Below, piece after piece: positions 12,600-27,264 of a stretch of 64,000 bases of DNA (within the stretch, counting starts at the first letter, position 1; each line of letters opens with the position of its first letter). The translations under genes were made by a program, and so were the position numbers. This DNA comes from Clostridia bacterium (GTDB lineage Bacteria; Bacillota; Clostridia; Oscillospirales; Acutalibacteraceae). Location: assembly GCA_017399535.1 (NCBI GenBank), contig JAFQBX010000022.1, forward strand, positions 1-64,000, in the 5' to 3' direction. The notes below the pieces were generated by a model, which ran no database searches, had not been told where the DNA came from, and saw nothing but the letters and a program-made list of their open reading frames with translations.

Positions 12600-12708
12600 C
12601 AGCATTTAACCAAGCGGTAGTTTTGTAGCCCTATTCGGTAAAAAAACGTCCGCAATTTTTTCAGCGCGATAAAAATTTTTGTTAATGGGTGGCGAATACA
12701 AAAAAATC

Positions 12709-12737
12709 TTGTATTTTGAGGTGTGTTATATTATAAT
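12709..12737 (+). promoter_or_regulatory. Promoter of the large surface protein
   Basis: TTGTAT (12709-12714), 17 bases, TATAAT (12732-12737). It lies about 110 bases before the start codon. Confidence 0.65.
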
Positions 12738-12758
12738 TTTTAAGTCAAAAATTATAAT
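12730..12758. repeat. 12-bp inverted repeat over the -10 box
   Basis: ATTATAATTTTT (12730-12741) and its exact reverse complement (12747-12758) flank a 5-base spacer. The left arm contains the -10 box, so it could be an operator or form a hairpin at the transcript's 5-prime end. Confidence 0.6.
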
Positions 12759-12849
12759 GATTATAAAAGAGGAAATCTCCTTGATAAAAAAAATAAAAAC
12801 ACAGCGGCAAACAGCCGATTTTTTACAATCTATATACGGAGGAAATAAT

Positions 12850-15150
12850 ATGAAAATGAAATGTAGGATTTTGAATAGAATATGCAGTATTGTGCTTGCG
12901 CTTGTGCTGGTGGCAGGACTTGTGCCGATGATGAGCTTGACGGCAAATGCTGTTGAAGTGAAGCATGCAGAAACAGGCATTAAATTCACAGCAAATGCGA
13001 TCTATTGCACCGAATGTGATTCTCCGTCCATGCCTATAAAAGCGCTTGAGATTGTGGAGGTTTCTTTTCCTAAAAAGAATGAAATAACCATCAAATATCG
13101 CTATAAACTTGAGCATAGCGGCTCTGACAAGTGTCGGGCAGGATATTGGGTCGATAAGGAACTGAATGACTTTTTTCACTGTGACGAAACTTATGAAAAT
13201 ACATACCTCACAATGTACCATGTTTTGAAGGTCACACGTAAAGCAGGTCATATTTGCACCTGGGAATCCACCGGTAACAATCAGCATAGCGGAAGGTGTC
13301 TTTGCTGTAAAGAAACAGTTACCGAGGACTGTGTCGGAGATGCCACCTGCACGACGTCGGCTACCTGCAAAATATGTAAATCCTCGTATATAGACACCGA
13401 CAATCACAAGCCCGAGTCCCTTTGGACAACCGACACGGAAGCAAAAACCCATTACCATGCATGCGAGAATGGCTGTGGACAGCGGCTTGACGAAGACGAC
13501 TGCGCCTATTCCGAGGCAACCTGTGAGGCGGCATCTGCCTGTGAAACCTGTAAACACACCTATGCGGAAAAGAAGTCACACAACTACACCGTGACAAAGG
13601 TGGACGGCGAAACGCTCGAACAAAGATGTGGTAGGGGTTGCGGACATCACGCTATTGCCTCCTTGTCAGCCGTTGACTCCGTTTATACCGGCGCTCCGAT
13701 TACAAATACTGCCTCGGTTAATTATTCGGGCGATGCTTGGGCGGGGAAAAAGCCGGAATTGAACTTTACGGATAACCTAAATGTAGGTCTCGCCACCGCA
13801 TCCCTTACCGCCGACGGCGAAAGTATTATAAAGATTTTCAGAATTAACAAGGGTAGTGGCTCGGTTACCAATATCAGCGATATTAGCAAGACCTATGATG
13901 GCACGGCGGTAACGGCTCCAACCTTTGACAAGCTGAGCAGCGGCGACGCCACCATCGAGTATAAGGAACTAAACGCTGACGACAGCACCTATACCACCAC
14001 CCCTCCCGTCGACGTAGGCGATTATGTTGTTCGCGTGACTGTTGCAGGCGACGATAATTGCAGAGAAGCATCGGCAACCGACGCGTTTTCAATCGCACGA
14101 GCTTCCCTTGAGGATGCGACACTTACTCTTTCAGACGACACCTTCACCTATAATGGCGAGTCGCAGAAGCCCGGCGTTACCGTAACTATGAATGGCGTAA
14201 CCCTGATAGAAGGTGTTGATTATCTTTCATACGTTAAGGGCGAGGATAGCGTAAAGACCTGGACTAATGGTTTGCCGACTAAATTCTTTGGTCCGGCAGA
14301 GGACACAACGGATTGCATTGATGTCGGTAAATATTATGTAATTATTTCGGGCAAGGACAACTATCTCACCGAAACTGAAACCACCCTCTTTGCTGAATAT
14401 GAAATTAAAAAGGCAGAAAATTCGTGGACTACTGCTCCGTCAATCGAGGATTGGGCCTTTGGGCAGAAGGCAAGTAAACCCACCGCCAAAGCTAAATTCG
14501 GCACGGTCAGTGTCAAGTACAGCGGCACTGCTAACGACGGCACTGAGTGGGATAATGAAACCGCACCGACAAAGCCCGGCGACTACACTGCTACCTTTAC
14601 CGTCGAGGGTACAAAGAATTACACAGGTCTGGAAAAGAGTGTCGATTTCACCGTCAAAAACATTGAGGAAATGACCTTTGATAACGTAACACCCGATGAC
14701 AAGTCCGACTTGAAAGGGTTAAAGTCCGAGTTGGAAAATTCGCTTGAAGAAAACGGTGATAGCTACACCGACGACGAAAAGCAGGCAATCGAGGACGCCC
14801 TCGACCGAATTGACGATGCACTCGAAATTATTGATAACGTGGAAGCGGTCGAGCAGATGATCGAAAATCTGCCCGAAACCATTACAAAGAATGACAAGGA
14901 CGCAATCAATGCGGCCGACAAGGCGTACAAAGCCCTCACAAAATACGAAAAATCGTTGGTCAATGAGGACGCAAAAAAAGCCCTTGACAAAGCAAAGTCG
15001 GCTCTTGCCAAGCTTAACAAAGCCTCTAACAGCGGCTCACCAAACACCGGTGACGCCAGAAACCTTTGGCTGTGGACCGCGCTTCTGTTTGTCAGCGGCT
15101 CATGCATTTTTGGCTTTACACGCAACGAGTGTAAGAAAAAGGTAAAATAA
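12850..15150 (+). CDS. Large secreted surface protein with Cys-rich repeats, MBG-like repeats and cell-wall-anchor-like tail
   Basis: A 766-residue protein. A signal peptide (hydrophobic core VLALVLVAGLVPMM, cleavage near TANA) is followed by a domain of about 80 residues, then two Cys-rich segments (about residues 130-235) with HICTWE, CLCCKE, CKICKS, CENGCG and CETCKH that probably bind zinc or form disulfides. Residues about 260-600 contain repeats with YTGA, TYDGT, TYNGES and tail motifs like those of MBG/YDG surface repeats. Residues about 610-715 are acidic and helical. The C-terminus has SPNTGD, a hydrophobic segment and a Lys/Arg tail, as in LPXTG sortase substrates but with a non-canonical motif. 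Start ATG 12850 has GGAGG seven bases upstream; upstream in-frame codons lie in the promoter. Likely a wall-attached adhesin. Confidence 0.85.
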   Translation: MKMKCRILNRICSIVLALVLVAGLVPMMSLTANAVEVKHAETGIKFTANAIYCTECDSPSMPIKALEIVEVSFPKKNEITIKYRYKLEHSGSDKCRAGYWVDKELNDFFHCDETYENTYLTMYHVLKVTRKAGHICTWESTGNNQHSGRCLCCKETVTEDCVGDATCTTSATCKICKSSYIDTDNHKPESLWTTDTEAKTHYHACENGCGQRLDEDDCAYSEATCEAASACETCKHTYAEKKSHNYTVTKVDGETLEQRCGRGCGHHAIASLSAVDSVYTGAPITNTASVNYSGDAWAGKKPELNFTDNLNVGLATASLTADGESIIKIFRINKGSGSVTNISDISKTYDGTAVTAPTFDKLSSGDATIEYKELNADDSTYTTTPPVDVGDYVVRVTVAGDDNCREASATDAFSIARASLEDATLTLSDDTFTYNGESQKPGVTVTMNGVTLIEGVDYLSYVKGEDSVKTWTNGLPTKFFGPAEDTTDCIDVGKYYVIISGKDNYLTETETTLFAEYEIKKAENSWTTAPSIEDWAFGQKASKPTAKAKFGTVSVKYSGTANDGTEWDNETAPTKPGDYTATFTVEGTKNYTGLEKSVDFTVKNIEEMTFDNVTPDDKSDLKGLKSELENSLEENGDSYTDDEKQAIEDALDRIDDALEIIDNVEAVEQMIENLPETITKNDKDAINAADKAYKALTKYEKSLVNEDAKKALDKAKSALAKLNKASNSGSPNTGDARNLWLWTALLFVSGSCIFGFTRNECKKKVK

Positions 15151-15152
15151 AT

Positions 15153-15194
15153 AAAAGAACAGTCCGAAACAGAATCGTTTCGGACTGTTCTTTT
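15153..15194. terminator. Bidirectional terminator
   Basis: AAAAGAACAGTCCGAAAC pairs exactly with GTTTCGGACTGTTCTTTT around a 6-base loop, ending both the surface gene and the RpiR gene. Confidence 0.92.
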
Positions 15195-15209
15195 ATATTT
15201 TATAAATTC

Positions 15210-16046
15210 TCAATATTTTTTTGTTAAAAGTGAGTGTTCGGTTTCCTGAATTGATTTCAGGGTGCCTTCCGAGCGGTGATATACAACATAAAAATACAGG
15301 GTATCGATTATTGCGAGTTGGGCAATTCGCGAATTAAGTGCAAGTACGTTATATTTCGTCTCCTCGGAAGCGGTTGCCAGAACGATGTCACTTTGCTTTA
15401 AAATGTGTGATTTACCGCTATTGGTTATAGCGATTGTTGTAGCATTATGCTCCTTTGCAATTTTGAGTGCTTCGACAACGTCCTTTGACGAGCCGGAGTG
15501 AGAAATACCGATTGCAATATCATTTTCCTTTAAATGAGATGCGGCAATTGCCTGCATGTGATTGTCGGTATAGGCGATGGCGTTGAGTCCCGCACGCATG
15601 AATTTGTGGCTCGCGTCAAGGGCAATCGCCGAGGAGTTTCCTAAACCGAATATTACAATTTTATCCGCTACGCAGAGCTTTTCGGCTGCTTGTTTGAGCA
15701 AATCTTCCTTTAACGATTCCTTTGTTTTTTCTAACGAGAGGTAAATATCGTTACAAACCTTTTGATAAATGTCAAAAGGGGTATCTGCTTCTGTGATATG
15801 GGTGCTTGCAGGTGAACCGCCGCTTTCGGCAGCGAGCAGGAATTTTAATTCCTGAAATCCGTTAAGGTTTAACCTTTTTGCGAATCTGACTATGGTTGCT
15901 TCACCGCATTCGCATTGTTCGGCAAGCTCAATTATTGATAACGAAATAATTTTACCCGGATTTTCAAAAATCCAGTCGGCAATTCTTTTTTCTGCTTTGC
16001 CCATTTTGTCGTAAAGCAGCTTAATTTGCAGTGAAATTCTATCCAT
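15210..16046 (-). CDS. RpiR/MurR-family transcriptional regulator
   Basis: A 278-residue regulator with an N-terminal RpiR helix-turn-helix (SIIELAEQCECGEATIVRFA, about residues 36-55) and a C-terminal SIS sugar-phosphate-binding domain (about residues 110-250, including IFGLGNSSAIALDA and GISHSGSSKDVVEA). It should sense a phosphorylated sugar intermediate. It is transcribed away from the catabolic operon at 16220-25642. A perfect 18-bp palindrome lies 12 bases upstream of its own start, and two further copies of the core lie at the operon promoter, so it probably represses both itself and the operon. Confidence 0.93.
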   Translation of the reverse strand: MDRISLQIKLLYDKMGKAEKRIADWIFENPGKIISLSIIELAEQCECGEATIVRFAKRLNLNGFQELKFLLAAESGGSPASTHITEADTPFDIYQKVCNDIYLSLEKTKESLKEDLLKQAAEKLCVADKIVIFGLGNSSAIALDASHKFMRAGLNAIAYTDNHMQAIAASHLKENDIAIGISHSGSSKDVVEALKIAKEHNATTIAITNSGKSHILKQSDIVLATASEETKYNVLALNSRIAQLAIIDTLYFYVVYHRSEGTLKSIQETEHSLLTKKY

Positions 16047-16057
16047 TCTTTACCTCT

Positions 16058-16075
16058 TATGAAAATATTTTCATA
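16058..16075. promoter_or_regulatory. RpiR operator 1 (perfect 18-bp palindrome)
   Basis: TATGAAAATATTTTCATA is a perfect palindrome next to the rpiR start. Its core GAAAATATTTTC recurs at 16137 and 16190. Confidence 0.8.
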
Positions 16076-16134: not shown

Positions 16135-16163
16135 TTGAAAATATTTTCGTAATATAGTATGAT
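16135..16163 (+). promoter_or_regulatory. Operon promoter overlapping RpiR operator 2
   Basis: TTGAAA (16135-16140), 17 bases, TATGAT (16158-16163). The operator core GAAAATATTTTC (16137-16148) covers most of the -35 box, a position suited to repression. Confidence 0.8.
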
Positions 16164-16189: not shown

Positions 16190-16201
16190 GAAAATATTTT
16201 T
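16190..16201. promoter_or_regulatory. RpiR operator 3
   Basis: GAAAATATTTTT matches the operator core at 11 of 12 positions and lies just after the expected transcription start, 18 bases before the first start codon. Confidence 0.65.
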
Positions 16202-16219: not shown

Positions 16220-17623
16220 ATGTTGGATTATAAAGTGAAGATCGGACTTGTTCCAATGCGTCGCAATACAACCGATAGACCGAAGGGTACCTTTCTCACA
16301 TGGCATTCGGCAGAAGAGAGAGGAAAAAAATTCGTAAAATACATCGAGGATAAATATACAACCGAAAAGGTTACATTCGTCAATTCAAAAGGACTTGGCC
16401 ATAATGACCTTATTTTCGACGATACTTCTGCCGCCGAAATCATACAGCGGTTTAAGGATAATGACGTAGATGCGGTGTTTATTATAAACTGCAATTTCGG
16501 TAACGAAGAGGCGGCAGCTGACATAGCAAAGGCGATTGGCAAGCCGGTACTCATTTGGGCACCGCTTGATGACGAGTATTACGTTGACGGTATGCGTCCT
16601 ACCGATTCGCAGTGTGGACTTTTTGCCGTTTCACGTCAAATGCAGCGCTATCATATTCCTTTTTCTCACCTGCCTTGTTGCCGCGTGGAAAGTGACGAGT
16701 TCAGAAGGGGTTTTAACCTTTTCACCCATGTTGCCTGCATGGTCAAAAACTTTAAGGGCTTGCGTATAGGCCAGGTTGGCATTCGTCCGGCACCTTTTTA
16801 TTCGGTAATCTGGAATGAAGGGGAATTGATGGAGAAGTTTGGAATAAAGATTGTTCCAATCAATTTGGCAATGATTGAGCAGAGAATGAAAACTGCCGCA
16901 GTAGATTATACTGACGAAATTGCCGAGTACGAGCGATATTTTATGACCCATTTCGAGCTCGACGATTTAACCCCCAAATACATAAAGCCGATGGCCACCC
17001 TGACAGCTATGTATAAGCATCTGTTTGAGGAATATAAGCTCGACGTTATTTCAGCAGAATGCTGGACGGCAACGCCCATGATGTTTGATGGATTAGCTCC
17101 TTGCGCAGTTTACGGACTGCTTAACGAAATGGGTTATATGGTTGCCTGCGAAAGCGATCTTCACGCCGCTATAACAATGGTACTGCTGAAAAGCGCCACA
17201 TTAGGTGCCGGTAGACCGCTTTTCGGTGAATTTACAGTACGACATCCCGAAAATAAAAATGCCGAGCTTCTGTGGCATTGCGGACCCTTCCCGGTAAGCA
17301 GTAAGGCACCGGGAACGAGAGCGCGGCTGGTTAATCAGCGTTCGTGGTTCAGGGCAAAGGACGGCAACTACACCGTCGCTCGTATCGACCAGGAACACGG
17401 CGATTATATGGTTTTGCCCCTCGTTTGCAACACTACCGAAGGACCGCAAACCCACGGCACGTATCTTTGGGCCGAGTTTGATGATTTGCAGGCGGTAGAG
17501 GATCGGCTGATCGACGGACCATACATTCACCACTTTGTCGAAATGCCCGGCAATTTTGTGAAAGAGTTTAAGGAGTTTTGTAAATACTTCCCCAACCTCA
17601 AGGTTGACGAAAGCGTTAAATAA
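16220..17623 (+). CDS. L-fucose/L-arabinose isomerase-family protein
   Basis: A 467-residue protein of the fucose-isomerase fold, first gene of the operon. An N-terminal region (VKIGLVPMRR) precedes a Rossmann-like segment with NDVDAVFIINCNFGNEEAA. Candidate metal ligands sit in SAECWTATP (about residue 275), CESDLHAAI (about 310) and later His residues. The family interconverts aldoses and ketoses with Mn2+ or related metals. Some members in sugar-acid operons have no known reaction. Ribosome site GAGGCGG, nine bases from ATG. I infer it makes a ketose substrate for the FGGY kinase or modifies a pathway intermediate; the substrate is unknown. Confidence 0.82.
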   Translation: MLDYKVKIGLVPMRRNTTDRPKGTFLTWHSAEERGKKFVKYIEDKYTTEKVTFVNSKGLGHNDLIFDDTSAAEIIQRFKDNDVDAVFIINCNFGNEEAAADIAKAIGKPVLIWAPLDDEYYVDGMRPTDSQCGLFAVSRQMQRYHIPFSHLPCCRVESDEFRRGFNLFTHVACMVKNFKGLRIGQVGIRPAPFYSVIWNEGELMEKFGIKIVPINLAMIEQRMKTAAVDYTDEIAEYERYFMTHFELDDLTPKYIKPMATLTAMYKHLFEEYKLDVISAECWTATPMMFDGLAPCAVYGLLNEMGYMVACESDLHAAITMVLLKSATLGAGRPLFGEFTVRHPENKNAELLWHCGPFPVSSKAPGTRARLVNQRSWFRAKDGNYTVARIDQEHGDYMVLPLVCNTTEGPQTHGTYLWAEFDDLQAVEDRLIDGPYIHHFVEMPGNFVKEFKEFCKYFPNLKVDESVK

Positions 17624-17654
17624 TCACGCACATATTTAAAGGAGATATATAGAA

Positions 17655-19091
17655 ATGCAGTACCAAATGAATGAATTTTTATTCGCTATGATTTTGACCG
17701 AGCTGGAGGACGCAGTTGGTAAAGAAAACTGCTCAACCCGTGCTATTGACAAGGTTACACATAGCGTTGACTATTATTGGCTTTCGCGCATGTGGGCCGA
17801 CCGCGGTTGCCGTATGCCCGAGGCGGATATCGTTGTCTGTCCCGAAAATGCACAGGAAGTTTCAAAGGTGTTAAAAATCGCCAATTATTACAAGCTTCCC
17901 GTTACCACATGGGGAGCGGGCGGCGGTACACAGGGCGGCGCTATTCCCGTTGCCGGCGGTATCATTCTTGATACAAAGAGAATGAACAAAATTTACGAAG
18001 TTAACACAGAGGGCATGTATATCGAATGCGGTACAGGAGCCATCTATAAGCATATCGAGTACGCCGCAAACGAGGTTGGCAAGGCAACCATGCACTATCC
18101 CTCTTCGCTTACCTGCTCGACGGTCGGCGGCTTTTTGGCCCATCGCGGAATCGGTGTAGTTTCGACCAAGTATGGCAAGATTGACGACATGGTGCTTAAA
18201 ATGGAGGTCGTTTTGCCTAACGGCGACATTATCGAGACCAGCTCGGCGCCAAAACACGCCGCAGGTCCCGACCTTAATCAGATATTCATCGGCTCCGAGG
18301 GTACTCTCGGCGTAATTACAAAGGCACAGATTCGTATTTTCGACCAGCCGGAAGAAAGGCGTTTCCGCGGCTTCTTATTCCAGGATATGCACGGCGCATT
18401 CCAGGCATCGCGTGAGCTTTTGCAGAAATTCAAGCCGTCGGTTATGCGCCTTTATGACGAAGCCGAAACCGCTTCACTTATCAAGAAAATCGTTGGCGTT
18501 GAGCGCAAGGGCGCATTTATGAACATCGCCTATGAGGGCGTAAAGGAAATGGTCGAGGTTGAGGAAAAAATTCTCCTCGAAACCTTTGCAAAGTATGGCG
18601 CCGAGGATTTGGGCAGCGAATATGGCGAAAAATGGTGGAAGGAAAAGATAACCTTCTTCTATCCCGGTCACATGATGGACATCCCACAGATGTTCGGTAC
18701 AATGGACACCATCGCGCCCTACGGAAAGATTGAAGAAATTTATTGGGCAATGAAGGAAGCCATCGAAACCAACTTCCCGCAGGCGAAGTTTATTGCACAC
18801 TTCTCGCATTGGTACGAGTGGGGTTCAATGATTTACGACCGCTTTATCGTCGAGGGCAAGGACGTTCCCGAGGATCCGGTCGAGGCATTGCGTTTGCATC
18901 AGGCAATCTGGACCTGCGGTGTCAGAGCGGCTCTTGCTCACGGTGGCGTTGTAAACGACCACCACGGCGTAGGAATCAAGCTTGGTCGCTTGATGAAGGA
19001 GCAGTACGGCCCCGCAATGCAGGTATTCGAAGGACTTAAAAAGTCACTTGACCCCAACGGAATAATGAATCCGTTTAAGTTGGGACTTTAA
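17655..19091 (+). CDS. FAD-binding oxidoreductase (GlcD / alkyl-DHAP-synthase-like)
   Basis: A 478-residue VAO/PCMH-fold flavoprotein. The FAD domain is recognisable from PVTTWGAGGGTQGGAIPVAG (about residues 82-101), STVGGFLAHRGIG and FIGSEGTLGVITKA. The C-terminal substrate domain has GGVVNDHHGVGIKLGRLM (about residues 434-451), close to alkyl-DHAP synthase and D-lactate/glycolate dehydrogenases, and ends in the family's DPNGIMNPFK. It oxidises a 2-hydroxy acid or polyol and passes electrons to other carriers. The next gene encodes an iron-sulfur protein and the last gene of the operon a fused Etf, so I infer electrons go through these rather than to oxygen. Spacing 31 bases from the previous gene, ribosome site AAAGGAG. 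Confidence 0.88.
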   Translation: MQYQMNEFLFAMILTELEDAVGKENCSTRAIDKVTHSVDYYWLSRMWADRGCRMPEADIVVCPENAQEVSKVLKIANYYKLPVTTWGAGGGTQGGAIPVAGGIILDTKRMNKIYEVNTEGMYIECGTGAIYKHIEYAANEVGKATMHYPSSLTCSTVGGFLAHRGIGVVSTKYGKIDDMVLKMEVVLPNGDIIETSSAPKHAAGPDLNQIFIGSEGTLGVITKAQIRIFDQPEERRFRGFLFQDMHGAFQASRELLQKFKPSVMRLYDEAETASLIKKIVGVERKGAFMNIAYEGVKEMVEVEEKILLETFAKYGAEDLGSEYGEKWWKEKITFFYPGHMMDIPQMFGTMDTIAPYGKIEEIYWAMKEAIETNFPQAKFIAHFSHWYEWGSMIYDRFIVEGKDVPEDPVEALRLHQAIWTCGVRAALAHGGVVNDHHGVGIKLGRLMKEQYGPAMQVFEGLKKSLDPNGIMNPFKLGL

Positions 19092-19112
19092 TAGAACGGG
19101 AGGGAAATAGCT

Positions 19113-20201
19113 ATGATAATGTCAGAAAAATGTAAACAGCACGTTGATTCCTGCCGTTTTTGTTGGATGTGCCATCACATTTGCCCCATCGGTAACGCTA
19201 CCGGTCAGGAAAGAAACACCGCCAGAGCGAGAGCGCTCGGCATCTCGCTTGTAAATCGCGAGGCGATTGAATTGGCGGAAATTATGGATAATATCTACGA
19301 GTGCTGCACCTGCGGAGCTTGCGTTCACGACTGTATCACCGGTTGGGATCCCGTAATGTTCACAAAGGAAGCACGTTTGCAGGCGGCTTTGGAGGGCGTA
19401 ACCCCCGATTATATCAAGGTTTTGGTCGCTAACTGCCTCGAAACAGGCAACGCCTATGGCAAAACTGCCACCTGCGACACTCTCACCGCGGCAATCAAGG
19501 CACACGCTGATAAAAAGGACACCCTTCTTCTTCTCGGCGTTGATGCAAAGTTTATGGCTTGCGAGCAGGCGGTTAAAGCAATCAAGGTGCTTGACAAGGC
19601 CGCCGTTGACTTCACAGTTTTAGATAACGAACCTGCTAGCGGAGCACAGCTCGATTTCCTTATCGGCGCCGCTAACGAAACAAAGCAGCAGATGACCGCC
19701 TGCGCAAAGGTGCTCGGCGAGTATAAAACGGTTGTCGTTTACGACCCGACCGATGCAAAGGTTATCAAGCAGCTTTATAAAGAATACGGCATCGAGGTTG
19801 ATGCCGAGGTTGTTACATACACATCCTTTGTTGCTTCTCTTTTAAAGGACGGCAAGTTAGAAGCAAAGAACAGCGGCGAATCGGTCGTTTTCCAGGATCC
19901 GTATCAGCTTTCACGCGACCTTAATGAAACCGAGGAAGCTCGCGAAATCATCATGTCCTATGCCGTTCTCGGCGAAATGCTTCTGAATCGTGCCGAAACC
20001 GTCTGGGCAGGTAATATCCTTATGGCGCAGTATATTCCCGATATTGTAAAGAAGGTAGCCGAGCGCAGAATTTTCAACGCTACATCAATCGGCGCCGATA
20101 TCATTGTTACCGCTTGCGTTGGCGAATACGTTTCGCTGAAAGCCGTAGAGCAGGATAAGGTAAGGATTATTTCTATCGAAGATTTGATTTTAGGTGAGTA
20201 A
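19113..20201 (+). CDS. Two-[4Fe-4S] GlcF/HdrD-like protein with degenerate CCG domains
   Basis: A 362-residue protein. Residues about 10-75 carry two ferredoxin-type cluster motifs, CRFCWMCHHICP and CCTCGACVHDC. The remaining 280 residues align by eye to the two CCG domains of GlcF/HdrD-type proteins, but the diagnostic cysteines are gone: the usual DPCHL is DPYQL, and no CCG triplet remains. It would therefore carry electrons through two clusters but lack the non-cubane cluster site. It is encoded directly after the FAD enzyme, as GlcF follows GlcD. Start ATG 19113 has GGGAGGG eight bases upstream. Confidence 0.85.
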   Translation: MIMSEKCKQHVDSCRFCWMCHHICPIGNATGQERNTARARALGISLVNREAIELAEIMDNIYECCTCGACVHDCITGWDPVMFTKEARLQAALEGVTPDYIKVLVANCLETGNAYGKTATCDTLTAAIKAHADKKDTLLLLGVDAKFMACEQAVKAIKVLDKAAVDFTVLDNEPASGAQLDFLIGAANETKQQMTACAKVLGEYKTVVVYDPTDAKVIKQLYKEYGIEVDAEVVTYTSFVASLLKDGKLEAKNSGESVVFQDPYQLSRDLNETEEAREIIMSYAVLGEMLLNRAETVWAGNILMAQYIPDIVKKVAERRIFNATSIGADIIVTACVGEYVSLKAVEQDKVRIISIEDLILGE

Positions 20202-20204
20202 TAA

Positions 20205-21044
20205 ATGTTAGTAAACTTAAAATACGTGCTTAATTTGGCGGAAAAGGGCGGCTTCTGCATCCCTGCCTTTAACGTGTATAATATGGAAAGCGTAATGGGC
20301 GTTATCAAGGCGGCCGAGGAAACAAAAGCACCCATCATTATGCAGGTTTATCCCCGACTGATGAAGGAGGAAACGGGCTATTACCTTTCTCCCGTTATTC
20401 TTGCGGCAGCAAAAAAGGCATCCGTTCCCGTTTGTTTCCACCTCGACCACGGTCCGAGCGAGCTCGAAACCACACGCTCCATTCGTTATGGCGCTACCGG
20501 AATTATGCTCGACGGCTCGACCCTGCCGTTTGAGGAGAATATCGCTTTGACCAAGCGTGTGGTCGAAACCTGCGAGTTCGTTGATGTTCAGGTCGAGGGA
20601 GAGCTCGGTCACGTCGGCACAACGGCTGACAAGGATATGGACGAGTTTACCACTCCCGAGGACGCAAAGCGCTTTGTAGAGGACACGGGTGTAGCTTGTC
20701 TGGCGGTTGCTGTCGGCACTGCACACGGCAAGTATAAAAAACCGCCAAAGCTCGACATCGAGCGTATCGAGGCGATTCGTGCCGCTACCAATAATACTGC
20801 GCTCGTTTTGCACGGCGGCTCGGGCGTCCCTGATGAAGAAATTAAAAAGGCGGTAAAGGCAGGAGTTCGCAAAATGAACTTTGCTACAGATATTTGCTAT
20901 ACCTTCCTCGATAGCTGTCATGAGGAGCTTCACAATCCCGACAGAGCGGTTGCTATTGATAATTTTATGAAAAATCCCATCCAAGCGGTTAAGAATTTCT
21001 GCATTTCCAGAATTCAGCTTGTCGGTGCGGACGGAAAGGCGTAA
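20205..21044 (+). CDS. Class II (zinc) ketose-bisphosphate-type aldolase
   Basis: A 279-residue class II aldolase of the FbaA/GatY/IolJ type. Visible features are AFNVYNMESV, the catalytic Asp and zinc ligand in FHLDHG (about residue 83), GELGHVG, the ligand His in GTAHGKY, LHGGSG (phosphate and potassium site) and MNFATD. It cleaves a ketose 1-phosphate or bisphosphate to DHAP and an aldehyde. The flanking PfkB kinase and IolB-like protein suggest an IolJ-like step on a phosphorylated keto acid or ketose, but this cannot be told from sequence. It starts 3 bases after the iron-sulfur gene. Confidence 0.9.
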   Translation: MLVNLKYVLNLAEKGGFCIPAFNVYNMESVMGVIKAAEETKAPIIMQVYPRLMKEETGYYLSPVILAAAKKASVPVCFHLDHGPSELETTRSIRYGATGIMLDGSTLPFEENIALTKRVVETCEFVDVQVEGELGHVGTTADKDMDEFTTPEDAKRFVEDTGVACLAVAVGTAHGKYKKPPKLDIERIEAIRAATNNTALVLHGGSGVPDEEIKKAVKAGVRKMNFATDICYTFLDSCHEELHNPDRAVAIDNFMKNPIQAVKNFCISRIQLVGADGKA

Positions 21045-21047
21045 TCT

Positions 21048-21959
21048 ATGGTTAAAATAGTAGGAATAGGAGCAAACGTTTTTGACACTCTCTATAATAT
21101 CCCTACATACCCGACCGAAGATACTAAAATGAGAGCCACCGCCTGTAAAACAGCGGGTGGCGGACCGGTTGCAACGGGACTCGTCGCGGCGCAAAAATTG
21201 GGCGAAACTACAGCCTATATCGGCGTTTTATCGGATGATAACGGCGGTCGGTTTTTAAAAGCTGACTTTGAAAAATACGGGGTCAAAACCGACTTAATCG
21301 AGGTCAAATCAGGGTATCGTTCCTTTGCGTCGGTGCTGTGGCTTTGTGCCGATACGGCTAGTCGCACCTGCGTTTTTGATAAGGGGGATTTACCGCCTCT
21401 CGTTTTAACCGATGAGCAAAAGCAGGGGGTTCGTGACGCCGAAATTCTGATGGTTGACGGAAACGAAATGGACGCAGCGGTGGATGCTGCCGCTATTGCT
21501 CGCGATAGCGGGACAAAGGTGCTTTACGATTGTGGCGGATTGTACGAAGGGGTCGAGCGATTACTGGCCCTGACCGATATAATGATTCCGTCGGAGGAGT
21601 TTGCGCTTGGTCATACGGGCTGCGCTACGGCAGCGGAAGCGGCAAAAAAGCTTTTTGACCTCTATTCGCCCGAAATCGTTGTAATCACTCAGGGTAAGCG
21701 CGGCGGCATAATTTACGACGGCGAAAAGGTCACCGAATACCCGATTTATCCTGCCGACGTGGTCGACTCAAACGGTTCCGGTGACGTGTTCCACGGAGCG
21801 TTTGCGGCAGCGCTTGTAAAGGGGTTTGACTACCTTAAATGTTGTCATTTTTCGAGCGCGGTGTCGGCTCTCAAATGTACCGGTATCGGAGCCCGAGAAA
21901 GTGTACCCGACTTTGAAACGGTAAAGAATTACTTAAAGGAGAACGGCTATGAACTTTAA
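21048..21959 (+). CDS. PfkB/ribokinase-family carbohydrate kinase
   Basis: A 303-residue kinase with the N-terminal GIGANVFDTLY, the GGGPVATG motif (about residue 40) and the catalytic loop DSNGSGDVFHGAF (about residues 244-256; the Asp is the base). The family includes IolC, 2-keto-3-deoxygluconate kinase and ribokinase. In this operon it would supply the phosphorylated substrate for the adjacent aldolase. It starts 3 bases after the aldolase gene and overlaps the next gene by 11 bases, so translation is likely coupled. Confidence 0.9.
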   Translation: MVKIVGIGANVFDTLYNIPTYPTEDTKMRATACKTAGGGPVATGLVAAQKLGETTAYIGVLSDDNGGRFLKADFEKYGVKTDLIEVKSGYRSFASVLWLCADTASRTCVFDKGDLPPLVLTDEQKQGVRDAEILMVDGNEMDAAVDAAAIARDSGTKVLYDCGGLYEGVERLLALTDIMIPSEEFALGHTGCATAAEAAKKLFDLYSPEIVVITQGKRGGIIYDGEKVTEYPIYPADVVDSNGSGDVFHGAFAAALVKGFDYLKCCHFSSAVSALKCTGIGARESVPDFETVKNYLKENGYEL

Positions 21960-22743
21960 GAAATCATATAAATCAGCAGGTGGATATACACCCATTTGTA
22001 AAATAGGTGAAAGCAGTCTCAAAAAGCTTGAATTTGGAATTATCGAGCTCGAACCGGGACGAAAGTGGCTTTTTGACACCGAGGATAAAGAGTTTGCATT
22101 CATAATGCTCGAAGGTTACTGCAATTTAGAGGTAAACGGCGAGGTTTATAAGAATATCGGCAACAGACAAACTGTTTTTGAAAATCGAAAGGCAGAAAGC
22201 TTTTATATGCCGAGGGAACAACAGCTTGCAATAGAAGCCGTGACCAAGGTTAAAATTGCCGTTTGCGGTACACCCGTTAATGAAAAAACCGAGCATCAGG
22301 TGTTTCGCGAATCTCACGTTAAGTTAAAGATGCTGGGCGAAGTGCCTTATCAGCGCGAAACCAGCTTTATTATCGACGGCGATTCCAATGCAAAGGTGCT
22401 TACAATTGGCGAATGCTATTGCACAGAGGGCAACTGGGCAGGGTTCCCTCCTCACAAGCACGACGTCAATAATATGCCACACGAATGTATTGCCGAGGAG
22501 ATTTATTATTTCCTCTTTAACCCCAAGCAGGGCTTTGCAGTGCAGTGTCTTTATACCGACGATGGCTTGATTGACGAGGCGTATAGGGTAAAGAATGACG
22601 AGCTCGTCGAGTTCCCGAGGGGTTATCATACCACCGTTTCCACACCCGGATACCAAACCTATTTTCTGTGGGTTATGGCGGGTGATTATCAGGGCTTTAA
22701 CCGAAGCTCTGACCCCGACCACGCGTGGATTGAAAATAGATAA
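21949..22743 (+). CDS. IolB/KduI-family cupin isomerase (5-deoxy-glucuronate-isomerase-like)
   Basis: A 264-residue bicupin of normal IolB length. IolB converts 5-deoxy-D-glucuronate to its 2-keto acid in inositol breakdown. The second cupin has the metal-binding residues in PPHKHD (about residue 166), EEIYYF and a later RGYHTT, matching the family. Together with the PfkB kinase and class II aldolase just upstream it reproduces the IolB-IolC-IolJ sequence. There are no IolG, IolE or IolD genes here, so the upstream chemistry must differ or be encoded elsewhere. ATG overlaps the kinase end; ribosome site AAAGGAG. Confidence 0.85.
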   Translation: MNFKKSYKSAGGYTPICKIGESSLKKLEFGIIELEPGRKWLFDTEDKEFAFIMLEGYCNLEVNGEVYKNIGNRQTVFENRKAESFYMPREQQLAIEAVTKVKIAVCGTPVNEKTEHQVFRESHVKLKMLGEVPYQRETSFIIDGDSNAKVLTIGECYCTEGNWAGFPPHKHDVNNMPHECIAEEIYYFLFNPKQGFAVQCLYTDDGLIDEAYRVKNDELVEFPRGYHTTVSTPGYQTYFLWVMAGDYQGFNRSSDPDHAWIENR

Positions 22744-22752
22744 TGTTTTTGA

Positions 22753-22790
22753 TACAATAGAGATATGCGAGATAGCATATCTCTATTGTG
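22753..22790 (+). repeat. Long perfect hairpin inside the operon
   Basis: ACAATAGAGATATGC (22754-22768) and its exact reverse complement (22775-22789) surround a 6-base loop, GAGATA. There is no T-run, so it is not a simple terminator. It lies in the only long gap of the operon, between the IolB-like and FGGY genes. Possible roles are an RNA processing or stability element, or a protein binding site. Confidence 0.7.
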
Positions 22791-22817
22791 GCATTTATGA
22801 AAAGGAAGAAATATGAA

Positions 22818-24293
22818 ATGAAATATCTATTAGGTATCGATTTCGGTGGCGGCGCTTCAAAGGCGACGTTAATCAATACGGAAGGCGAGATTATCGCCGA
22901 AAACACGGTAGAATATCCTACTCTTTATCCCGAAATCGGCGCTTGTGAACAGGCACCGCAGGACTGGATAGACGCCCTTTGCGAAAATAGTAAGGCGCTG
23001 ATTTCAAAAAGCGGCATTGACGCAGGGGATATTTTGGCGGTAGCACTCGACTCGGCTACGCATACTTTCGTTGTTTGTGATGAAAATTATAAGCCGCTTC
23101 GTAACGCTGTTCATTGGACCGACACGCGCTCAAAGCAGCAGGTAAACAAGCTGAATAGCAAATTTGGCGACGAAATTTTCGCTAAAACGTATCATAAGCC
23201 GAGCACAATTTGGACCCTGCCGCAGCTTATTTGGCTGAGCGAAAAGGAGCCCGAAACCTTTGCTAAAATCAAATATATTTTCTTCGAAAAGGATTATATC
23301 CGCTACTTTTTGACCGACGTTTTCTGCACCGATTATATCGAGGCGGAGGGCAGTATGCTTTTTGACTGCAATACTATGCAGTGGGACAAAAAGCTTTGCG
23401 ATTTGGCAGGGATTACTGCCGATATGTTGCCGCCTGTTGTAAAGCCCACCGACGTCATCGGCAAGGTTACTTTGGCGGCGGCGAAGGCGACCGGACTAAG
23501 TGAAGGCACCCCCGTTATCTGCGGCACTACAGATACGGTGATGGAGGTGTTCGCCTCCGGTGCGGTGAAAAAGGGTCAAATGACCTTAAAGCTTGCTACT
23601 GCGGGACGAATTTGCGTCATTACGGATAAAACATATCCCGATATTAACCTAATCAACTATTCCCATTTTATTGATGGCTTGTATTATCCCGGCACGGCGA
23701 CAAAGTCGTGTGCGGCATCATACCGTTGGTTTAGAGATACCTTTGGCGGCGATTATAAGGAGCTTGATACGGCGGCATCAGAGGTGCCAATCGGTTGCGA
23801 CGGACTCGTTTTCCACCCCTACCTGAATGGGGAGCTGACACCCTACGCCAATCCGAATTTGTGCGCCGATTTCGTCGGAGTCAGAGCGTCTCATACAAAG
23901 CCGTATTTCACTCGCGCAGTGCTCGAAGGGGTCGCGATGAGTATGCTCGATTGCAAAAAGACACTCGACGGATTAAATGTTCCGCACGACAGCTCGGCTA
24001 TGATTATCGGCGGCGGCGGAAAAAGTTCCTTGTGGCGTCAAATTGTTTCGGATGCGCTTGGAATGGAGCTTGTCGAGATGAAATATACCGACTCATCATT
24101 AGGTAGCGCAATGCTTGCGGGAATTGCCGTAGGCGTATTCGAAAACGCCGAGCAGGCGGTAAAAAAATGCAACAAAGTCACTTCGACAACCCTTCCAAAT
24201 CACGAAAACACAGTAAAATATAACGAACTTTTCAGAAAATATAAAGCAATTCAAAAGGCGCTTGAACCAATTTACAACGGTGAATGTTTATGA
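22818..24293 (+). CDS. FGGY-family carbohydrate kinase (xylulokinase-like)
   Basis: A 491-residue sugar kinase. FGGY features: LLGIDFGGGASKATLIN at the N-terminus, the HWTDTR loop (about residue 98), the catalytic Asp in CGTTDTVMEVFASG (about residue 240), and the C-terminal ATP site MIIGGGGKSSLWRQI. The family phosphorylates ketoses and polyols such as xylulose, ribulose, fuculose or erythritol. The fucose-isomerase-like protein in the same operon could supply a ketose. Start ATG 22818 lies nine bases after GGAAG; the upstream in-frame ATG at 22797 lies in the intergenic gap. Confidence 0.9.
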   Translation: MKYLLGIDFGGGASKATLINTEGEIIAENTVEYPTLYPEIGACEQAPQDWIDALCENSKALISKSGIDAGDILAVALDSATHTFVVCDENYKPLRNAVHWTDTRSKQQVNKLNSKFGDEIFAKTYHKPSTIWTLPQLIWLSEKEPETFAKIKYIFFEKDYIRYFLTDVFCTDYIEAEGSMLFDCNTMQWDKKLCDLAGITADMLPPVVKPTDVIGKVTLAAAKATGLSEGTPVICGTTDTVMEVFASGAVKKGQMTLKLATAGRICVITDKTYPDINLINYSHFIDGLYYPGTATKSCAASYRWFRDTFGGDYKELDTAASEVPIGCDGLVFHPYLNGELTPYANPNLCADFVGVRASHTKPYFTRAVLEGVAMSMLDCKKTLDGLNVPHDSSAMIIGGGGKSSLWRQIVSDALGMELVEMKYTDSSLGSAMLAGIAVGVFENAEQAVKKCNKVTSTTLPNHENTVKYNELFRKYKAIQKALEPIYNGECL

Positions 24294-25642
24294 AAATTTT
24301 AGTGTGTGTAAAGGTTGTAAAAGGGGAGCTCAATCCCTTTGATGAGTCGGCGCTTGAATGCGCGTTGCAGTTGTCCGACGACGTTACGGTCGTATCCATG
24401 GGCCCAAAAAGCAGCGAAAGCGCATTAAAGCCGCTGACACGACTAGGCGCAAAGGTGGTTTTGATAAGCGATAATTGCTTCGCCGGCTCAGACACCCTTG
24501 CAACGTCGTACATACTGTCGACAGCGATAAAGGGAATGGAATATGACCTAATCCTTTGCGGCAGGCAGAGCATCGACGGAGATACCGCCCAGGTCGGCCC
24601 AATGCTTTCGCAGATGCTCGGAATTCCGCTGATAACAAACGCGCTCAAAATTGAGGTTAATGATGATAGCGTTTTTGCCGCCACCCGTTTGGGCGACGAA
24701 AGCGTAAAGTTGCCTGCACTAGTCGCGTTGGAGCGAGGATATGTTTTACGTTTTCCGAGCATTTTTTCAAAGGTTGGCGAGGTAAAAATCCTTGATAATG
24801 AGGCGCTTGGATGCGATCTGCAAAAATGTGGATTGACCGGTTCACCGACAAAGGTGCTGGAAACGTTTGAAAATGAGCGGGGAAGGCGAAAATGCAGGTT
24901 TATTTTGATGGATGAACTGCTACCGCTTATCGATGAGCTGATAAAACAGAATAATGTCGAATCGCAAAAAACGTACGATGGTACAAAATTCAAAAGTGTA
25001 TGGGCGGTCGGCGAGGAAGTGTATGAAAAGGCAAAGGAAATTGCCGAAGAGGTCATTTTAATTGAAAAATCAGATCCTCAAACAATATATGAAAAGGCGA
25101 TTGCCGAAAAGCCCGACGTAATTCTGTGGAACGCTGATTTTTGGGGCAGAAAAAACGCTCCCATAGTTGCCGCCATGCTGAATACGGGGCTTTGTGCCGA
25201 CTGCACTGCGCTCGAAACTGACGGCAAAAATCTGATAATGTACCGTCCTGCGCAGGGCGGCAACATAACGGCAAAGATAAAGTGCGTTACCAAGCCACAA
25301 ATGGCAACCGTCAGGACAAAAAGCGACAGCTCCGACATTATCATTTCGGGCGGCAAAGGGGTTGCCGACAGTATTGATAAGCTGTACGAATTAGCAGAGA
25401 AGCTGGGTGCCGAAATCGGCGCATCGAGAGGGCTTGTCGATATGAACAGGATGCCTTACGATAAGCAAATCGGATTAACAGGAAAGACGGTCAGCCCCAA
25501 AATTTATATTGCTGTTGGCATTTCGGGAGCGATACACCACACCTGCGCGGTAGAGGGAAGTACGACTGTTATCGCAATAAATCCAGACAAGGATGCGAGA
25601 ATTTTTGATTACGCCGACTACGGCATTGTCGAAAGATTTTAA
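24290..25642 (+). CDS. Fused electron-transfer flavoprotein EtfB-EtfA
   Basis: A 450-residue single chain. Residues 1 to about 225 are EtfB, with MKILVCVKVV, VSMGP and GRQSIDGDTAQVGP; the last motif resembles EtfB of the electron-bifurcating groups. Residues about 230-450 are EtfA with the C-terminal FAD site GLTGKTVSPKIYIAVGISGA, then INPDKDARIF and ADYGIVERF. The chain binds two flavins in related proteins. It would link the GlcD-like dehydrogenase to NAD and perhaps ferredoxin. No extra ferredoxin domain is present, unlike LctC-type EtfA. The start overlaps the FGGY stop as ATGA; an in-frame ATG six bases earlier is also possible. Fusion in this order is uncommon; most Etf are two genes. 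Confidence 0.88.
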   Translation: MKILVCVKVVKGELNPFDESALECALQLSDDVTVVSMGPKSSESALKPLTRLGAKVVLISDNCFAGSDTLATSYILSTAIKGMEYDLILCGRQSIDGDTAQVGPMLSQMLGIPLITNALKIEVNDDSVFAATRLGDESVKLPALVALERGYVLRFPSIFSKVGEVKILDNEALGCDLQKCGLTGSPTKVLETFENERGRRKCRFILMDELLPLIDELIKQNNVESQKTYDGTKFKSVWAVGEEVYEKAKEIAEEVILIEKSDPQTIYEKAIAEKPDVILWNADFWGRKNAPIVAAMLNTGLCADCTALETDGKNLIMYRPAQGGNITAKIKCVTKPQMATVRTKSDSSDIIISGGKGVADSIDKLYELAEKLGAEIGASRGLVDMNRMPYDKQIGLTGKTVSPKIYIAVGISGAIHHTCAVEGSTTVIAINPDKDARIFDYADYGIVERF

Positions 25643-25653
25643 ATTCTGAATAA

Positions 25654-25695
25654 TAAAAAGAGACAGGGAGAAAAAATCTCTCTGCCTCTTTTTTT
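25654..25695. terminator. Bidirectional terminator
   Basis: AAAAAGAGACAGGGAGA and TCTCTCTGCCTCTTTTT close the catabolic operon and, on the minus strand, the AGCS symporter gene. Confidence 0.88.
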
Positions 25696-25707: not shown

Positions 25708-27264
25708 TTAGTCCTCAGAAATTACGCGTGCAATTTCAGCCGCCTGAATTTCGGGGTCAACGTTATACATCGGCTCGATGTTTTCCTTTTTCTTAACTCG
25801 TCTCAGATAGTTTCGGGTAATCTTTACAACCAGCGGAGAGAGGGCGAGTACACCGATAAGGTTCGGAATCATCATTAGTCCGTTGAAGGTATCCGAAATG
25901 TCCCAAGCGAGTGACGACGTAAGGATTGCGCCAAAGATAACCGTGCATACGTGGATGATGCGGAAGACAAAGGTTGTCTTTGCGCCAAAGAGGTATTCCC
26001 ATGCCTTTGAGCCATAGTGAGACCAGCCGAGAACGGTGGTAAAGGCAAAGAGGAACATAGCAACAGCAATAAACTTTGCACCTATGCCGCCCCATGAGAA
26101 TACCGAGTTGAATGCGCCGCCAACGAGGGTTGCATCGGTATAACCTTCTGCAATTTCGCCTGTTACAGCGTTGAATACGCCGCCGTTAAGTCCACCTGCG
26201 GTGAGGATAACGAGAGCGGTCATTGTGCATACAACCATTGTGTCGGCAAATACTTCAAAGATGCCCCACATACCCTGCTTAACCGGCTCCTTAACGTTTG
26301 AGTTCGAGTGAACCATAACCGACGAACCGAGACCTGCCTCGTTCGAGAAAACACCACGTTTGAAGCCCTGGGTAACAACCTTTCCGATAACGGCACCGAT
26401 ACCGCCGCCAACGAATGCTTCGGGGCTGAATGCGTTAACGAAAATTGCCTTAAATGCGGGGATGACATTCGCATAGTTGATAGCGATGATGACGAGACTG
26501 CCTGCAACGAAAAGTACCACCATAAAGGGTACGATTTTTTCTGCAACGTTAGCAATTCTCTTTAATCCGCCGAGTGTAATGAGGGCGGTGAGGAGCATAA
26601 TGAGTGCGCCGAGAATGATATTATAAAGCGAAACGCCCGAGAAAACCTCGATTGATGAAAGGGCAGATACGTCGAATGCCTGAGCAACGTTGGTAACGAT
26701 TTTGTTAACCTGACCCATGCTTCCGATACCGAATGATGCAAGCATCGCAAATATACAGAAAAGCACGGCGAGGGCCTTGCCGACCCATTTCATGCCCTTT
26801 TTCTTGCCGAGACCGTCGGCGAGATAGTACATAGCACCACCCGACCATTCGCCCTTTTCGTTCTTTCTGCGGTAATAGATACCGAGAACGTTTTCGGCGT
26901 AGTTGGTCATCATGCCAAAGAATGCGGCAACCCACATCCAGAAAACAGCACCTGCACCACCGATGCAGATAGCGGCGGCAACACCGGCGATATTACCTGT
27001 ACCTACCGTAGCGGCAAGCGCGGTACACAGCGCCTGGAAGGGAGAAATCGAGCCCTTTTCCTTGCTGTGCTTGATTACGTCCTTGCTAAAAAGACTGCCG
27101 AGTGTGTGCTTGAACCACAGACCGATGTGTGATACCTGAAAGAATTTGGTGAGTATGGTAACGATTATACCCGTACCAACCAAAAGGAGCAGACCGAAAG
27201 CACCCCAAACGACGCTGTTAATTTCGCCGTTTACACTTTCAATCGTTTGCAAAATTTTGTCCAT
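25708..27264 (-). CDS. Sodium:alanine/glycine symporter (AGCS family)
   Basis: A 518-residue membrane transporter with about ten to eleven segments. AGCS signatures are GTGNIAGVAAAICIGGAGAV (about residues 93-112), NEAGLGSSVMVHS and the FTTVLGWSHYG stretch. It imports small neutral amino acids with sodium. A glycine riboswitch and terminator in its leader make glycine the likely substrate or signal. Start ATG has GGGAGG in range. Transcribed as a single gene. Confidence 0.95.
   Translation of the reverse strand: MDKILQTIESVNGEINSVVWGAFGLLLLVGTGIIVTILTKFFQVSHIGLWFKHTLGSLFSKDVIKHSKEKGSISPFQALCTALAATVGTGNIAGVAAAICIGGAGAVFWMWVAAFFGMMTNYAENVLGIYYRRKNEKGEWSGGAMYYLADGLGKKKGMKWVGKALAVLFCIFAMLASFGIGSMGQVNKIVTNVAQAFDVSALSSIEVFSGVSLYNIILGALIMLLTALITLGGLKRIANVAEKIVPFMVVLFVAGSLVIIAINYANVIPAFKAIFVNAFSPEAFVGGGIGAVIGKVVTQGFKRGVFSNEAGLGSSVMVHSNSNVKEPVKQGMWGIFEVFADTMVVCTMTALVILTAGGLNGGVFNAVTGEIAEGYTDATLVGGAFNSVFSWGGIGAKFIAVAMFLFAFTTVLGWSHYGSKAWEYLFGAKTTFVFRIIHVCTVIFGAILTSSLAWDISDTFNGLMMIPNLIGVLALSPLVVKITRNYLRRVKKKENIEPMYNVDPEIQAAEIARVISED

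Follow-up and report, generated by a model that had tools for sequence, protein, structure and literature searches.

A conserved operon of herbivore-gut Clostridia combines predicted sugar-splitting enzymes with an alkyl-DHAP synthase-type flavoprotein, an Fe-S protein and a fused Etf

Electron bifurcation and confurcation linked to Etf proteins are known so far for lactate, acyl-CoA and quinone chemistry. The LctBCD system of Acetobacterium woodii joins a FAD_binding_4/FAD-oxidase_C flavoprotein to an Etf of the bifurcating group, with a ferredoxin domain on EtfA. Its NAD+-linked oxidation of lactate requires ferredoxin owing to the redox potential (PMC9232219). Among aldolytic sugar routes, sulfo-EMP2 employs a DUF4867 protein (SqvB), a FucI-like isomerase (SqvD) and a class II aldolase (SqiA) (PMC9594981). 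The uncharacterised E. coli cluster ygcNOPQRSUWE holds a flavoprotein of the alkyl-DHAP synthase (AGPS) type (YgcU), an Etf (YgcQR) and an FGGY kinase (YgcE) in one neighbourhood. Here we describe an operon, located in a 64,000-nucleotide stretch of DNA (hereafter the window), whose individual parts are recognisable from such systems and whose combination is without description in the literature searched: the open-licence PMC papers contained no account of the gene set, of ygcU/E/N/Q, or of AGPS with Etf.

Eight ORFs lie tightly packed on the + strand at 16220-25642, and a gene for an RpiR/MurR-type regulator (15210-16046, - strand; HTH_6 and SIS domains, Pfam PF01418 and PF01380) points away from them, as described in the initial annotation, whose gaps of 3-74 bases were nonetheless inexact: the junctions run from +74 down to -11 bases, with overlaps of 11 bases at PfkB/IolB and 10 bases at FGGY/EtfBA. 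The +74 junction lies upstream of FGGY, provided that this gene starts at the ATG at 22818. Pfam families recovered were FAD_binding_4/FAD-oxidase_C, aldolase (PF01116), PfkB, KduI/IolB, FGGY and fused Etf, and the isomerase-like first protein (FucIL) had no Pfam match; the families originally named hold at superfamily level, that of FucIL through its AlphaFold fold. On the flanks, a Na+ (sodium):alanine symporter gene (AGCS, 25708-27264) is convergent to the operon and shows no sign of membership, and a large surface-type protein is encoded at 12679-15150; it ends in SPNTGD and a membrane segment, much like a cell-wall sorting signal, and is followed by a bidirectional terminator-like hairpin of 20 pairs (15151-15196).

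The 173-base gap between regulator and operon contains GAAAATATTTTC at 16061-16072 and 16137-16148 (exact) and at 16190-16201 (one mismatch), and with at most one mismatch these are the three copies in the whole 64 kb, none falling outside the gap. Most related loci also have a divergent regulator, of RpiR or AraC type, and in 12 of 30 loci the gap beside the regulator contains GAAAN4TTTC, whereas 0.55 would be expected. This confinement, together with the enrichment in relatives, makes GAAAATATTTTC a candidate RpiR operator. Identified purely by consensus match are a promoter-like TTGAAA-17-TATGAT (16135-16163, + strand), which overlaps the second operator copy, and a terminator-like hairpin after the operon (25664-25684, + strand).

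A flavoprotein profile recovered 286 relatives from GTDB representative contigs, of which the best 80, 86-100% identical, were taken; these MAG sequences stem from ruminant, deer, goat, sheep, rabbit and related sources, and a few from elsewhere. Genes were counted in the 56 loci that extend 9.9 kb or more downstream, all of them MAGs and mostly from herbivore gut; as they were picked by close similarity of the flavoprotein (annotated GlcD-like), the counts describe an ortholog group. The Fe-S, IolB and FGGY genes are each found in 56/56 of these loci, the aldolase (FBA), PfkB and Etf genes each in 55/56, and FucIL, the movable part of the operon, in 36/56. Because all seven genes from GlcD to EtfBA are kept in 54 of the 56, the arrangement is one conserved unit and not a product of chance. 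The proposal of a single operon tying a flavin electron-transfer set to sugar enzymes is thus upheld, and homologous operons do not generally lack the Fe-S or Etf genes. The operon is nevertheless accessory: within the order, 5 of 117 genomes have it. The flavoprotein gene occurs twice in one MAG in two cases (L088/L097 and L044/L104; JAFTVH, CAMFSU), so that two versions of the operon may coexist in some genomes.

Additional genes in relatives are mostly inserted at the IolB/FGGY junction and include DUF4867 (28 of the 80 loci; not in the window), a mutarotase (18 loci), NagA (9), a NagB-like gene (8), an AEC carrier (7) and ManA (5). In the window this junction carries a hairpin read from the sequence, CAATAGAGATATGC-GAGATA-GCATATCTCTATTG (22755-22788, + strand), with a perfect 14-bp stem and no T-run, which may mark transcript processing. 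FucIL, FBA and PfkB form a unit by themselves in locus L115, and L037 has GlcD, Fe-S, IolB, FGGY and Etf genes without these three, which suggests that the operon is made of two modules.

The second gene (17655-19091) encodes the flavoprotein. GlcD and Etf had initially been likened to the lactate dehydrogenase/Etf complexes: a hydroxy-acid dehydrogenase would act as in LctBCD, and a cyclitol, deoxy sugar or sugar acid would be degraded through inositol-like lower-pathway steps (IolB, IolC, IolJ). By profile against the PDB, the best solved relatives of the protein are instead alkyl-DHAP synthases (156 and 148 bits), followed by D-lactate dehydrogenase (122) and LctD (106). In the AGPS alignment, R265 corresponds to R419, Y394 to Y578, and H436/H437 to H616/H617, the last two residues of the HHH motif, so that the catalytic Arg, Tyr and His residues of AGPS are present. 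We take R419 and Y578 to be the mutated AGPS positions, judging from differences among PDB chains 4bc7 and 4bca and from AGPS numbering. RLYD (RFYD in one), HxSHxY/F and HHG are conserved among 13 AGPS-type proteins and missing from two GlcD-type controls, and in the window protein AHFSHWYEW and NDHHG stand where the metal-binding His motifs of GlcD/D-LDH would be. A GlcD of the lactate/glycolate type is ruled out by these active-site residues and by the absence of the GlcD/LDH metal motif, and an active site of the AGPS kind does not indicate a hydroxy-acid substrate.

The window protein thus shares fold family and Arg/Tyr/His-His residues with alkyl-DHAP synthase, but the first His of HHH is Asp or Glu in its clade (Asp in the window protein, NDHHG), no ether-lipid genes were recognised, and its operon context with Fe-S and Etf proteins implies a net redox reaction. 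This genomic context would argue against ether-lipid synthesis from acyl-DHAP; a search of the genome with the flavoprotein found no second relative. AGPS-type genes stand beside FGGY or glycerol kinases in L161, L162, L166 (a glp operon), L168, Mesorhizobium, Labrenzia, Microbacterium and E. coli ygc. L168 is a ygc-like cluster of Bacillota with a GlpP-like gene, SDR, FGGY, EtfB and EtfA, and its GlpP-like antiterminator gene suggests a glycerol-3-phosphate-like signal. From the kinase neighbourhoods and the DHAP-type site we propose a (phospho-)polyol substrate, the flavoprotein being a presumed (phospho)polyol or sugar dehydrogenase. In four other loci of Bacillota (L163, L164, L165, L167), an AGPS-type flavoprotein and a two-cluster Fe-S protein form a stand-alone pair with no kinase. 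The E. coli relative YgcU (30% identity, 192 bits) lies with YgcQR and YgcE (L112, 8658-19375, ygcN-ygcE); the ygc cluster differs from the window operon in that it includes a transporter, an SDR and, as a separate pair, FixC/FixX-like proteins, and lacks isomerase, aldolase and IolB.

The protein encoded next (19113-20201) has CxxCxxCxxxC motifs at residues 14 and 64, as expected of two [4Fe-4S] clusters, and none of the eight cluster Cys varies among 29 sequences. A PDB sequence search gave nothing useful, its top matches being pentatricopeptide repeats. Foldseek placed its predicted model (pLDDT 73, with residues 1-78, including the cluster region, mostly below 50) closest to mycobacterial EtfD, then LutA and HdrB, consistent with an EtfD/HdrB-like C-terminal fold that lacks the CCG cysteines. 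The last gene (24284-25642) encodes a fused EtfB-EtfA, whose relatives carry the GDTAQ and RPxxGN/GS motifs. Both halves score higher against bifurcating than non-bifurcating Etfs, and the margin is wide for the EtfB half (88-133 versus 30-46 bits); by sequence, EtfBA is thus closest to the bifurcating/confurcating group. Association of this Etf with another dehydrogenase is not indicated, since family searches of the genome identified it as the sole Etf-alpha and found no acyl-CoA dehydrogenase. RnfC is present.

The DHAP/glycerol-3-P couple has a redox potential similar to that of the lactate case, which makes confurcation plausible here too. The window operon resembles LctBCD in its flavoprotein domains and Etf group, but differs in the AGPS-type active site, the fused EtfBA, the separate two-cluster Fe-S protein in place of a ferredoxin domain on EtfA, and the linkage to sugar enzymes. 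The idea of flavin-based electron transfer is therefore strengthened, and the lactate-type character of the flavoprotein is not. Relatives at 58-71% GlcD identity (L161, L162) have no EtfBA in the regions examined; an electron acceptor of this kind is therefore not universal.

The inositol part of the initial proposal fared less well. The IolB-family isomerase (21949-22743) does pass its curated model (TIGR04378, 220 bits, cut-off 205) and is 35-36% identical to annotated IolB proteins. In contrast, the PfkB-family sugar kinase (21048-21959; PF00294, 130 bits) reaches 96 bits against the IolC domain (TIGR04382), whose cut-off is 300, the genome (93.6% complete) has no match to IolD or MmsA, and its IolE-like and IolG-like scores, 56 of 290 and 119 of 355 bits, are far below cut-off. 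Given the missing IolD/MmsA and the IolC score, an inositol lower pathway is not supported beyond IolB. The combined hydroxy-acid and inositol scheme retains the IolB match and the LctBC grouping of the Etf, Gfo/Idh and xylose-isomerase-like TIM genes (weakly like IolG/IolE) occur near some relatives, and a TRAP-type transporter in L162, read by eye, would fit an acid; set against the AGPS-type active site and the missing steps, we nevertheless regard it as unlikely. The FGGY kinase (22818-24293, from the ATG of MKYLLG; an alternative GTG start at 22788 is possible) is xylulokinase-like, scoring 373 bits against TIGR01312, just short of the cut-off of 380, and its nearest solved structures are gluconate and xylulose kinases.

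The other module begins with FucIL (16220-17623), for which a PDB sequence search gave no useful match. In its AlphaFold model (mean pLDDT 89.6) this predicted aldose-ketose isomerase adopts the arabinose/fucose isomerase fold, with TM about 0.8 to arabinose isomerases and a further match to fucose isomerase, and E280, D313 and H353 are invariant among 29 close relatives. The class II ketose-phosphate aldolase (20205-21044; PF01116, 295 bits) passes the cbbA subfamily model (252 bits, cut-off 215.6) and does not reach finer equivalogs. Isomerase, PfkB kinase and class II aldolase, joined in many relatives by DUF4867 and a mutarotase, match an aldolytic route of the sulfo-EMP2 or apiose type. 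The first of these comparisons raises the possibility of sulfoglycolysis, with sulfoquinovose as substrate, FucIL as SqvD, DUF4867 as SqvB, the PF01263 protein as a YihR-type mutarotase, FBA as SqiA, and PfkB as a YihV-type kinase; the flavin module would then process released glycerol or C3 sulfonate. The family composition (SqvB, SqvD, SqiA, YihR) fits sulfo-EMP/sulfo-EMP2, and chloroplast sulfolipid is abundant in herbivore guts. However, FucIL scores 103 bits against the SftI model NF048012, far short of the cut-off of 700 for SqvD/SftI, and is more similar to a subgroup that neighbours transketolase genes; the kinase of the window is of the PfkB and not the PfkA family; and neither SLA reductase, a sulfonate exporter nor other sulfonate-specific genes were recognised in the operons. 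Moreover, L113 and L114 combine FucIL-FBA-PfkB with DUF4867 and with ALDH, glycerate-kinase-like and enolase-like genes (these three read by eye), which suggests a glyceraldehyde-type C3 product. We consider sulfoglycolysis improbable, a shade more so than the hydroxy-acid scheme. FucIL homologues at 35% identity adjoin FGGY and two-subunit transketolase genes in L122 and L123, clusters that are probably D-apiose pathways of the ApsD kind.

The aldolase also matches tagatose-bisphosphate aldolase models, as would be expected if the operon served galactose or N-acetylhexosamines, FucIL yielding tagatose, PfkB and FBA completing the tagatose route, NagA and NagB-like enzymes feeding in amino sugars and the redox module serving a separate polyol. 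About nine loci have NagA and NagB-like genes within or next to the operon, and candidate GH2, GH4, GH31 and GH110-like glycosidases (by eye) lie near some operons; but most loci, and the window itself, lack such neighbours, and no sugar-specific model was passed, so that this use, too, seems unlikely.

The reading that we favour, tentatively and at a little under even chances, joins two parts under one RpiR-type regulator: an aldolytic sugar pathway and, coupled to it, an FGGY/AGPS-type/Fe-S/EtfBA module for the confurcating oxidation of a phospho-polyol or a similar compound. In the first module (FucIL, PfkB and class II aldolase, to which relatives often add DUF4867 and mutarotase), an aldose would be converted to a ketose, phosphorylated at C1 and split into DHAP and a three-carbon aldehyde, as in sulfo-EMP2. 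The second (AGPS-type flavoprotein, Fe-S protein, EtfBA, FGGY kinase and presumably IolB) would oxidise a polyol, phosphorylated or not, that FGGY makes or uses, possibly in a physical complex. The AGPS-type FAD would pass electrons to the two-cluster protein and this in turn to EtfBA, from which they probably reach NAD+ at the expense of reduced ferredoxin. We count in its favour the 54/56 loci, the AGPS residues, the kinase neighbourhoods, the Etf group, the sole Etf-alpha, the lack of an acyl-CoA dehydrogenase, RnfC, the EtfD match, the FucIL-FBA-PfkB unit and the family likeness to sulfo-EMP2. Counted against it are the lack of EtfBA near L161/L162 and of a kinase in L163, L164, L165 and L167, a FGGY that scores xylulokinase-like and not as glycerol kinase, the distance of FucIL from the SftI cut-off, the absence of a firm place for IolB in the scheme, and the fact that AGPS itself is not a net oxidoreductase.

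It is possible, if somewhat doubtful, that the operon encodes an electron-confurcating (or bifurcating) complex of a class not yet described: the AGPS-type flavoprotein would oxidise a sugar- or polyol-phosphate and deliver the electrons by way of the EtfD-like Fe-S protein to the fused EtfBA, all as part of an unreported sugar-splitting pathway of herbivore-gut Clostridia. The same logic would then explain E. coli ygc. The operon is compact and widespread in genomes from ruminant and other herbivore guts, and its common theme of flavoprotein, kinase and Etf offers a handle on the unsolved ygc genes of E. coli. If true, a sugar- or polyol-linked Etf would be a new route by which fermenting gut bacteria balance NADH and ferredoxin.
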